Origin: Bacteroidaceae bacterium
GTDB lineage: Bacteria; Bacteroidota; Bacteroidia; Bacteroidales; Bacteroidaceae
Assembly (NCBI GenBank): GCA_017615125.1
Contig: JAGAAS010000021.1
Coordinates: 1-45,631, forward strand
Direction of reading: 5' to 3'
DNA: 45,631 nucleotides
The translations under genes were made by a program, and so were the position numbers. Below, piece by piece: positions 35,168-45,275 of the stretch. Each line of letters begins with the position of its first letter. Positions within the stretch are counted from its first letter, which is position 1. The notes beneath the pieces were generated by a model. It was not told where the DNA came from and ran no database searches. It saw only the letters and a list, made by a program, of their open reading frames with translations.

Positions 35168-35247
35168 GCCTTCACGAAGGAACACGTAAGCCTTCACGAA
35201 GGAACACGTTCGCCTTCGTGATGTCTTAACTTCTCCTTCGTGATGTC
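35168..35247. repeat. 22-bp-period repeat with CCTTCACGAAGG cores
   Basis: Two exact copies of GCCTTCACGAAGGAACACGT lie at 35168-35187 and 35190-35209, and two shorter inverted forms (CCTTCGTGATGTC) follow at about 35213-35225 and 35235-35247. The cores are palindromic. The stretch 34909-35167 before it holds a CCCTTCTCGATAAAG word near 35132 and no gene I can support. Confidence 0.7.
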
Positions 35248-35403: not shown

Positions 35404-35434
35404 ATAGGTAAGGCTTTGCGCCTAATGTCTTTTG

Positions 35435-35521
35435 CGGAAGCTGGGGGATTCGAACCCCCGGTACAGTTACCCGTACGGCAGTTTAGCAAACTGCTGGTTT
35501 CAGCCACTCACCCAAACTTCC
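35435..35521 (-). tRNA. tRNA-Ser (GCU anticodon)
   Basis: The minus strand gives acceptor GGAAGTT with AGCTTCC, a long variable arm (about CCGTACGGGTAACTGTACC) and anticodon loop TTGCTAA. The anticodon is GCT, for serine AGC/AGU codons. It is 31 bp upstream of tRNA-Glu on the same strand. Confidence 0.94.
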
Positions 35522-35671: not shown

Positions 35672-36031
35672 CTCGCTTAATCGTATCTTTAACCTACGGT
35701 TTTAGATACTCTCGCTCGGGAACCGAAGGAGCAGCGAGAAAAGAGATGAAAACGCAAAGCCTTTTTCTTCTCTTCCGAGTCGCGACTGAGGAAGAACGAA
35801 GTTCAATAAAAAGAAAAACAAGTTTTCCTTTTGTATTCCTCTCGCTTAATCGTATCTTTAACTCATTGTTTTAGATACTCACGCTCGGGAGAAAAAAATA
35901 AAAATCACTTTTTATTTTGTTCTCCTCTCGCTTAATCGTATCTTTAACTCATTGTTTTAGATACTCATGCTCGGGAGAAAAAATAAAAACCTCTTTTTAT
36001 TTTGTTCTCCTCTCGCTTAATCGTATCTTTG
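35672..36031 (+). repeat. Array of about 85-bp palindromic promoter-like repeats
   Basis: The phrase CTCGCTTAATCGTATCTTT begins at 35672, 35841, 35927 and 36012. The last two intervals are 86 and 85 bp; the first is 169 bp, about two units, so one unit in between has decayed. Each full unit reads TTATTTTG, TTCTCC, CTCGCTTAATCG, TATCTTTAAC, a short loop, GTTTTAGATA, GCTCGGGAGAA, AAAATAAAAA, so its two halves are imperfect inverted copies. The first half carries TTTG, 19 bp, TATCTTT. Only the last unit keeps TATCTTTG and drives the gene at 36059. With the tRNA promoter it fills the 537-bp gap 35522-36058. Confidence 0.85.
36001..36031 (+). promoter_or_regulatory. Promoter for the cupin-GNAT gene
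   Basis: TTTG at 36001-36004, a 19-bp spacer and TATCTTTG at 36024-36031. The leader to the ATG at 36059 would be about 20 bases. Confidence 0.75.
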
Positions 36032-36058: not shown

Positions 36059-37423
36059 ATGCAGAATCTACCACGCGGTTGCAGGCTCATACACTTCCCC
36101 AAAAACGCCGACGAACGGGGATGCCTTTCTTTCGCCGAGGGACAGAAGCACATTCCGTTCCCCATCGAGCGCGTATTCTGGATTTACGACGTTCCCGAGG
36201 GGCAGAAGCGCGGAGAACACAGCCACAACGAGTGCTCCGAAGTCATCGTGCCCGTTTCGGGCAGCTTCGATATGGAGGTAGACGACGGCATCCAGCAGGC
36301 AACCGTCCACATGGATTCGCCTGAGACAGGCATCCTCATCCCTCCCAGCGTGTGGTGCCGACTGCAGAACTTCGCGCCAGGAACGGTGTGCATCGTCTTT
36401 GCCTCACATCCTTACAATGCTTCGGGATATACTCACAACTACGACACATTCCGTCGTTCCGTCGTTCAAACCGTCCCTTACGACGCTTCCCGCACCGAGG
36501 AGTGGAACCGGCTGGTAGCCGATTCGAAGAATGCCACCTTCCTGCTCGACCGACGCTACATGGACTATCATGCAGATCGTTTCCGCGACTGCTCTCTCCT
36601 ATTTTATAAAAAAGGAACGCTCATCGCCGCCCTTCCTTCTAACTTTGTCGAAGAGGAAAAAGCCGTCTATTCGCACGCAGGGCTCACTTACGGAGGACTA
36701 ATCCTCTCTCCCGCTATTACTGCCGTCGAGGCGCTGGAGGTATTCAGCTGCGCTATCCATTATTTCCGCACGCGATTGGGAGCCAAGCGCTGGATCTACA
36801 AGCCCGTTCCCTACATCTATCACCGTCTTCCTGCTGAGGAGGACCTCTACGCGCTGTTCCTTTCGGGAGGCAAAATCCAGGCGAGAGCTGTCTCCTCCGT
36901 CGTTGACCAACAGCACCGGCTCCCTATGCGGAAACTACGCCAGAGAGGCATCAACAAGGCGGCGAAAGCACAAATCACCTTCTGCGAGTCAAGCAGCTAC
37001 GAACTTTTCTGGCCCATCCTCGCTGAAGTGTTGCAAACTAAGCACGGAAAAAGGCCCGTTCATACGTTGGAAGAAATCGAAAGGCTGCATGCCTCCTTCC
37101 CCGACAACATCCGCCTTTTCCTCGCGCAGAAAGATGGAACAACGCTTGCTGGCACCGTTGTGTATGAGACTGAGACTGTTGCGCATGCGCAATACATCGC
37201 TTCTTCGAAAGAAGGGACTGAAGTGGGCGCCCTCGACGGCCTTTTCGACTACCTCATCAACGAGAGGTACAGCGACAAGAAATGGTTCGACTTCGGCATC
37301 TCCACAGAGCAAGGCGGAACGTATCTCAACGAAGGGCTCGTCTTCCAAAAGGAAGGATTCGGCGCGCGTGCTGTCGTCTACGATCAATACGTTATAAATC
37401 TAACAGAGAGTTACGAAGAGTAA
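36059..37423 (+). CDS. FdtA-like cupin fused to a GNAT/FemAB-like acyltransferase
   Basis: Residues about 1-140 are a sugar 3,4-ketoisomerase type cupin (FdtA/QdtA, WxcM-like): RVFWIYDVPEGQKRGEHSHN with His54 and His56, SEVIVPVSGSFDMEVDDG, and the closing YNASGYTHNYDTF. Residues about 145-450 look like a FemAB/GNAT acyltransferase, with DRRYMDYHADRFRDCSLLFY, HAGLTYGGLIL, RWIYKPVPYIYHRLP and FDFGISTEQGGTYLNEGL. FdtA-type enzymes isomerise dTDP-4-keto-6-deoxyglucose on the way to amino sugars, and acyltransferases finish such sugars; the aminotransferase that would act between is not nearby. The substrate is therefore inference. The gene stands alone, with its own promoter and a terminator at 37439-37474. 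Confidence 0.8.
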   Translation: MQNLPRGCRLIHFPKNADERGCLSFAEGQKHIPFPIERVFWIYDVPEGQKRGEHSHNECSEVIVPVSGSFDMEVDDGIQQATVHMDSPETGILIPPSVWCRLQNFAPGTVCIVFASHPYNASGYTHNYDTFRRSVVQTVPYDASRTEEWNRLVADSKNATFLLDRRYMDYHADRFRDCSLLFYKKGTLIAALPSNFVEEEKAVYSHAGLTYGGLILSPAITAVEALEVFSCAIHYFRTRLGAKRWIYKPVPYIYHRLPAEEDLYALFLSGGKIQARAVSSVVDQQHRLPMRKLRQRGINKAAKAQITFCESSSYELFWPILAEVLQTKHGKRPVHTLEEIERLHASFPDNIRLFLAQKDGTTLAGTVVYETETVAHAQYIASSKEGTEVGALDGLFDYLINERYSDKKWFDFGISTEQGGTYLNEGLVFQKEGFGARAVVYDQYVINLTESYEE

Positions 37424-42721: not shown

Positions 42722-42787
42722 TTTATCAACGCGTTGATAAAGGTGTCTCAACGCGTTGATAAAGGTGTCCCAACGCGTTGATAAACC
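42722..42787. repeat. Triplicate 22-bp repeat with palindromic core
   Basis: CAACGCGTTGATAAA begins at 42727, 42749 and 42771, an exact 22-bp period, with GGTGTC spacers. The first copy is a full 20-bp palindrome, TTTATCAACGCGTTGATAAA. Three perfect CAACGCGTTG palindromes one to two helical turns apart look like an array of operator-type sites. The rest of the 323-bp gap (42541-42863) shows no gene. Confidence 0.85.
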
Positions 42788-45118: not shown

Positions 45119-45275
45119 AGGCTAAGGGCTAAATAGGCTAAAGGCTAATGGGCTAAGAGGCTAATTAAAGGCTAAAAGGCTAAAGGCCAATAAAACCTAG
45201 AGCCCTAGAAATTCTAGGATTCCTAGAAAAACTAGAAAACTAGAGAAACCAGTAAGCCTAGTAAGCCTAGCGCAA
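45119..45275. repeat. GGCTAA and CTAG short-repeat tract
   Basis: From 45119 to about 45190 the word GGCTAA or a one-base variant recurs about nine times at uneven spacing. From about 45200 to 45275 the word CTAG recurs about nine times (CCTAGA, TTCTAGGA, ACTAGA, GCCTAG). No open frame fits it. It lies between the aldolase stop and its terminator, so it would be in the 3' end of the mRNA. Confidence 0.75.

Follow-up and report, generated by a model that had tools for sequence, protein, structure and literature searches.

Directly in front of a predicted sugar-cupin gene in a contig from a member of the Bacteroidaceae (JAGAAS010000021.1, assembly GCA_017615125.1) lies an array of short palindromic repeats, the last of which runs into what appears to be the promoter of that gene. 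The question raised by this locus is how a promoter comes to be repeated in this manner, and whether the repeats arose in place, act as RNA or were brought in by an element that moves. The window, as used below, is the whole stretch of DNA analysed (45,631 nt), and the genome to which it belongs is referred to as the own genome. Judged from sequence, the repeated unit is probably a non-autonomous mobile promoter element which inserts at -7 boxes and forms arrays by serial insertion and duplication, and it would belong among elements of the MITE/REPIN kind.

The array in the window

All four copies of CTCGCTTAATCGTATCTTT reported in an earlier note at 35672, 35841, 35927 and 36012 are found there, and the 17-mer core gives 4 matches (up to 3 mismatches) in the window against 0.08 expected. 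For 35808-36030, Tandem Repeats Finder gives a period of 86 with 2.6 copies and 91% matches. The units are in tandem as described, but the distance between 35672 and 35841 amounts to two unit lengths (169), with mostly foreign sequence in one unit (Table 1). This replacing sequence includes CTTCCGAGTCGCGAC, which is common to the window and the array of contig C74 (by eye); the left-arm pattern matches 35704-35719 with 0 mismatches. The claimed palindrome is real, the unit at 35836-35922 folding at -20.6 kcal/mol compared with a shuffled mean of -7.9 (z -5.3), and the claimed layout of TTTG, 19 nt and TATCTTTG stands as given. The gene behind the array had been labelled cupin-GNAT, of which the N-terminal sugar cupin is borne out (Pfam FdtA, E 4.5e-44) but no second domain passed 1e-5. 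The divergent neighbour, a tRNA-Ser gene, recurs upstream of the orthologue in many of the relatives examined. Other short tandem repeats detected in the window by Tandem Repeats Finder are 22-bp units at 35168-35217 and 42726-42785, and repeats of the AGGCTAAT type at 45119-45195.

Table 1. Features of the array and its neighbours in the window.
Feature	Position	Strand	Basis or remark
First recognisable copy, right end (CTCGCTTAATCGTATCTTT, then A)	35672..35690	+	sequence inspection; eroded/foreign sequence on its left
Next unit: tip hairpin (AACCTACGGTT) and left arm (AGATAC...CGCTCGG)	35691..35719	+	
Different sequence replacing part of that next unit	35720..35804 (approximate boundaries)	.	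by eye
Second copy: A-tract/T-tract hairpin and right end	35805..35859	+	
Complete unit, 86 nt	35860..35945	+	
Complete unit, 85 nt, ending in the live (predicted) -7 box	35946..36030	+	
TTTG, -33 position, from last unit	36001..36004	+	spacing test; consensus as in the accessible part of PMC7366714
-7 box TATCTTTG: TATCTTT from element, final G read as host	36024..36031	+	
Served gene, 454 aa, N-terminal FdtA/WxcM-like sugar cupin	36059..37423	+	
tRNA-Ser, divergent neighbour of array	35434..35521	-	

Copies and anatomy of the unit

That the feature might be special to the window locus is not supported, since the core 19-mer is dispersed at 60 places of the own 3.03-Mb genome (38 forward, 22 reverse; up to 3 mismatches), many of them in tandem at 82–86 bp; the reversed 19-mer, used as a control at the same threshold, has 0 places there. 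The window array is one of about thirty such loci. Delimited by both ends, 113 units were available, 39 from the own genome, 64 from named contigs and 10 from other loci. In the own genome the element is 75–86 nt long, without coding capacity and present in high copy number.

Followed in the direction of the served gene, a unit starts with a small variable tip hairpin directly after TTT, succeeded by the left arm AAGnTAC. CGCTCGG, an A-tract/T-tract hairpin and CTCGCTTA-TCG form its middle, and the right arm GTAnCTTT its end. The arms AAGnTAC/GTAnCTT match each other, with the left one sitting behind the variable tip and not at the very end of the element. The right half contains TTTG, about 19 nt and TAnnTTT, while the Bacteroidetes promoter consensus consists of TTTG near -33 and TAnnTTTG at -7 (PMC7366714, accessible part). 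A TTTG at a spacer of 18–21 is present in 43/60 own right ends, in 77/86 right ends of named contigs and in 26/34 of the own terminal copies, compared with 0/60 own and 2/86 named right ends at the control spacer of 22–25. The right half of the unit is thus predicted to be a Bacteroidetes primary-sigma promoter, its activity being proposed from the sequence.

Several variants of this organisation were observed. At L034 (own contig C10, 3105-3266) one AT hairpin is common to two right ends that face away from each other, and the two are predicted to act as divergent promoters, one for a DEAD-box helicase gene and one for a second gene. A 41-nt unit at L083 (5639-5691) looks like a deletion between two CTTTCGCTCG copies flanking the AT hairpin. 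A related repeat family, termed B (the element described here being family A), has a right end like CTCGGCTTGCACTANNTTTG and a left end like TTAGATAGGCTGCGGCTCGG, and lies left of several A-family copies and next to RAYT-like genes (L013, L031, L040, L049; L151, L152). In addition, the arrays at L032 (2574-2620) and L036 (2542-2590), both on the reverse strand, start directly after another repeat, CCTCCTTTTGGGAGGGG-TGGGGGTAGG.

Genes behind the terminal copies

A same-strand open reading frame of at least 70 aa starts within 250 nt of 26/32 terminal copies. By a crude ORF call, 11/32 terminal copies fall inside some open frame longer than 100 aa, and these frames we take to be spurious. Six served proteins were given to Pfam, which returned an FdtA-type cupin (window), a PfkB kinase, a PASTA protein, an Exo_endo_phos protein, a DEAD helicase and a 2-oxoacid dehydrogenase acyltransferase; no common pathway is apparent among the six. 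At L032, near 2340-2388 on the reverse strand, a terminal copy is followed by the apparent start of a tRNA-Leu gene, with no ORF (by eye).

The final G of the -7 box

The earlier note had stated that only the last copy keeps the final G of the box. This is the case in the window and in the own genome, where G follows 33/34 terminal and 3/26 non-terminal copies, the latter being followed by A in 23/26 (terminal G vs non-terminal A, Fisher p 2e-12), but not in other species, whose named contigs have G after 49/50 terminal and also after 31/36 non-terminal copies. On our reading the final G comes from the host site, and the base that follows a displaced box comes from the inserted element; with the G supplied by the host site, the last copy of an array would end in G. 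What had been called a decayed promoter is better read as a displaced one, whose last base has given way to the first one of the incoming element, and the A after displaced boxes may be read as a trait of this lineage's elements, not as decay.

Filled and empty orthologous sites

Among 15 genomes of the genus compared at the window locus, four are filled, namely the own genome with 4 right ends, G005 with 4 (of another subfamily), and G013 and G007 with 1 each. The remaining 11 are empty (for two of these the sequence upstream is short, 198 and 132 nt), and several empty relatives have a TAnnTT(T/C)G box at the expected place. The empty G002 and the filled G013 align on both sides of the insertion and the split is almost clean, with TACCTTT|G separated by about 83 nt that begin with the tip and end with GTATCTTT. 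Copies at many promoters and in variable number, proposed earlier as signs of a mobile or switching element, are hence both observed, the same locus having 0, 1 or 4 between related genomes.

Two further loci were compared; L033 was set aside, as its gene start had been misplaced. In front of the endonuclease/exonuclease/phosphatase gene the own genome is filled and 11/11 others are empty (1/12 filled). Of these 11, however, five have an identity of only about 50% and are perhaps not true orthologues; another two matches, weak or second ones, were left out. At this locus TTTGC...CCTATCTTCG is found in G003, G009 and G016, and a similar TTTGC...TTATCTTTG lies directly left of the element in the own genome. 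In front of the PASTA-domain gene the own genome is filled and 17/17 relatives are empty (1/18 filled, one second match of G012 left out). Here the leader after the box is conserved between the own genome and G005 (87% protein identity), and the left flank in the own genome is the end of a related repeat, so that only the right junction is informative.

All empty sites lie in species other than the own one, and the comparison thus displays fixed differences, not live movement; transposition is the route that we infer. With regards to target duplication, nothing beyond TTT or CTTT is common to both junctions, and as the element's own right end accounts for this, the mechanism of insertion is not diagnostic. 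One alternative that fits such junctions is a site-specific cassette, moved by a tyrosine recombinase with the -7 box as its core site in the manner of CTnDOT, the core site of which is GTAnnTTTGC. It would explain TAnnTTT at both junctions with exchange next to TTT, as well as the variation from copy to copy of the bases next to the left box. However, the target often has no leading G and no tested evidence links an integrase to the element, which makes this alternative unlikely.

In the preferred explanation, a non-autonomous mobile element enters a Bacteroidetes -7 box that is already present, between its TAnnTTT and its final G. The right half of the element would bring a promoter complete but for the G, which the host site would supply, and the gene would for this reason keep its start region and 5' leader while gaining the promoter of the element. 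Transcription would then proceed from the element's promoter, leaving the old one upstream, and in the own species the first base of the element (A) would usually take the place of the old promoter's G. Since the right end would make a new TAnnTTTG box, it would present a target for the next copy, and arrays would follow by serial insertion and local duplication.

Target box and growth of arrays

Among 47 units not preceded by another copy, 24 have a TAnnTT(T/C)(G/A) box within 28 nt left of the left arm and 23 have no box by this test, compared with 2, 1, 2 and 2 boxes in controls shifted by 40, 60, 80 and 100 nt. Not every case is independent of the others, as several of the own ones lie on the related family B (with a right end resembling CTCGGCTTGCACTATCTTT) and L018, L021 and L023 have upstream sequence in common. 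In 19 units the flank and the unit's own right end carry different bases at the variable position of the box, which makes these units informative; the left arm follows the own right end in 18 of them and the flank in 1. The inherited unit therefore extends from left arm to right end.

The closest copy of the 21 own array units is next door in 9 and elsewhere in 12, but three of the 12 are near-ties and four lie in the opening stretches of contigs C97 and C98, which resemble each other; leaving these four out makes it 9 to 8. The two complete units of the window share 95% identity, compared with 91% to the next best copy, and the last step there was thus probably a local duplication. At L021, L035 and L036, on the other hand, neighbours are of different hairpin types, which points to serial insertion. 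Isolated copies reach as much as 97% identity with those of other loci. These counts suggest that arrays grow by serial insertion plus local duplication, the latter explaining part of them. Accounts in which ordinary promoters are multiplied locally through slippage or unequal crossing-over and reach other genes by rare gene conversion, with no mobile element, would accommodate the 9/21 units closest to a neighbour and the 95% identity in the window. They are quite unlikely overall, given the filled and empty sites with their boundary at TTT|G, the isolated copies nearly identical to those of other loci, and a left arm that follows its own right end. The earlier suggestion of a promoter duplicated by a small palindromic element was right in essence, with copies at many promoters and copy number varying between related genomes.

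The TAnnTTT half of a -7 box can base-pair with the left arm, AAGnTAC, as the two are complementary. It is possible, and put forward only tentatively, that the element is a selfish one homing to promoters by base pairing, a single-stranded form recognising the boxes and inserting after TTT. Each insertion would then rebuild a promoter with unchanged start site, and because of this insertion would be nearly harmless and copies could stack. If true, dozens of unrelated genes would have come under one promoter family.

Foldback and the question of RNA

The foldback was examined in an alignment of 38 units, comprising 36 of the 39 own units (three left out) and 2 from relatives, in which 91.6% of cells are paired. 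Double changes number 92, against 36.9 in shuffles, a comparison inflated by the relatedness of the copies, and against 2–22 in slid structures, which retain that relatedness, the tested structure itself being drawn from the same sequences. Two of five foldback measures are weaker against shuffles, with 39 and 28 of 500 reaching the observed value. Compensatory changes preserve the foldback.

The pairing gives no firm strand bias when G-T and A-C pairs are counted (40 vs 25 in 111 units with 13 pairs; 30 vs 34 in 38 units with 23 pairs), and the pattern fits a palindrome at the DNA level at least as well as RNA. The RNA folding check suggested for a single unit yields a stable prediction (-20.6 kcal/mol, z -5.3), as would be expected if transcripts from displaced promoters folded and attenuated or stabilised the message. 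Action of the units as RNA is nevertheless very unlikely, as the terminal copy stops with the -7 box and so lies ahead of the point where transcription is expected to begin, the served genes are unrelated and strand bias is not evident. The small non-coding RNA family considered in the earlier note is likewise unsupported, there being neither a clear strand bias in pairing nor an Rfam family at gathering score at the array.

Distribution and the search for a mobilising enzyme

In a first set of 61 genomes, all 18 relatives of the same genus have 9–73 right-end matches. Outside the genus three genomes of the same family are rich (144, 39 and 20) and the others have 0–2, like the reversed control. 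Across 201 genomes of the family, 50 have at least 10 matches, in eight genera. In each of the groups g6 and g13, two sampled species are rich in the element while the rest are not. The named carriers are 44 stretches, mostly from Prevotella or Prevotellaceae assemblies and many from ruminant gut, with one isolate contig among them (Prevotella sp. AGR2160). Plasmids searched for the element gave no match and phages one partial match (75%), while viral contigs gave 0 matches to the full-element pattern and 4 to the right end. One contig of the viral collection (L212, 6066-6150) bears a variant form, with left end GGCACTCTCGCTCGG and right end CTCGCTTATTCGTACCTTTG on the minus strand.

In the own genome no autonomous copy or parent insertion sequence became apparent, a left-arm scan giving no distant left/right pair; the 864-nt gap at L083 contains other repeats, with no recombinase recognised among the listed ORFs. 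PF01548 (IS110 family), considered as mobiliser, occurs in 3/23 element-rich vs 3/29 element-poor genomes, and PF01797 in 10/23 vs 8/29; both were rejected.

A more specific alternative is a REPIN, in which a RAYT (HUH/Y1) transposase would move a REP-doublet hairpin in single-stranded form and insert it 3' of a short target. The foldback with compensatory changes and the tandem clusters, as in REPINs (PMC3116915, accessible part), agree with it, as do long RAYT-like proteins (alignment A1, H-x-H motif) in 31/50 element-rich vs 24/151 other genomes. Among the first 61 genomes, G028, G032 and G035 outside the genus are element-rich with RAYT matches, and the other 15 same-family genomes with 0–2 element matches have no RAYT match. 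All five RAYT-like proteins tested match NCBIfam REP_Tyr_transpos with E 8.6e-13 to 4.1e-8, below its curated cut-off in every case. However, the association, although holding across genera, is gone within them (201 genomes, permutation p 0.45), and for this reason RAYT is no longer relied on as the mobiliser. Furthermore, the own genome (assembly 87% complete) has no RAYT match, and the element-rich G114 and G101 (both 99% complete) have none to A1, PF01797 or PF01548. An A-family element lies near only 1/64 RAYT-type loci, some of which overlap. A GTAG or CGTC tag at the foot of the hairpin is expected of REP/RAYT elements (title of PMC3733652), whereas the present ends read AAGnTAC / GTAnCTTT (alignment A2). 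With neither such a tag nor a RAYT link, the element is not filed as a REPIN, and this alternative is regarded as doubtful.

The RAYT-like proteins themselves (L147-L164, L181-L210) are about 340–560 aa long with a long conserved C-terminal part, which gave no convincing Pfam match in the five tested and which by eye recalls, we presume, DprA-like folds. At two genomic loci (in G015 and G013) a family-B element stands beside a RAYT-like gene.

Comparison with known systems

The element behaves like a mobile promoter. If the preferred explanation is true, with the leader left intact, about thirty loci of one genome would share a single promoter family. This would amount to a natural experiment in which promoters are replaced, and the way in which a mobile element reads a promoter box would become directly testable. 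For annotators there is also a warning, since such arrays break assemblies, contigs C97 and C98 both beginning inside one.

The putative mobile promoters of Matus-Garcia et al. (2012; cited in PMC4596501) are reportedly similar promoters before unrelated genes of one genome; in contrast to these, the ends, target site and foldback of the present element can be delimited. No account of such an element in Prevotella was present among the open-licence literature matches listed. Correia elements and promoter-bearing MITEs are, in the accessible part of PMC10969869, likewise small non-coding mobile elements that bring promoters to genes. The present element differs from them in that no clear target duplication flanking terminal inverted repeats is seen, and in that it would replace the core promoter at a fixed register and not land nearby.

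REPINs and the REP-RAYT system of Pseudomonas and E. coli share with it a short palindromic extragenic element with a predicted whole fold, compensatory changes, many copies and tandem clusters (PMC3116915, accessible part). REPIN doublets have been described as randomly distributed in extragenic space, whereas the present element sits in the -7 box and carries a predicted promoter, lacks the tag, and is neither tracked by RAYT nor, bar the single locus above, found beside it. A Bacteroidetes HuH subclass is described as flanked by atypical structures (PMC6006769, accessible part).

The nearest Bacteroidetes case found is the BrickBuilt MITE of Porphyromonas gingivalis, also an element with tandem repeats, which its authors suggested as a possible putative mobile promoter (PMC4596501, accessible part). 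In BrickBuilt, 23-nt repeats lie inside one element, whereas in the present case it is the entire element that is repeated in tandem. Mobile promoters known so far alter expression by chance, after landing in the vicinity of genes; the present element appears to aim at the core box itself.
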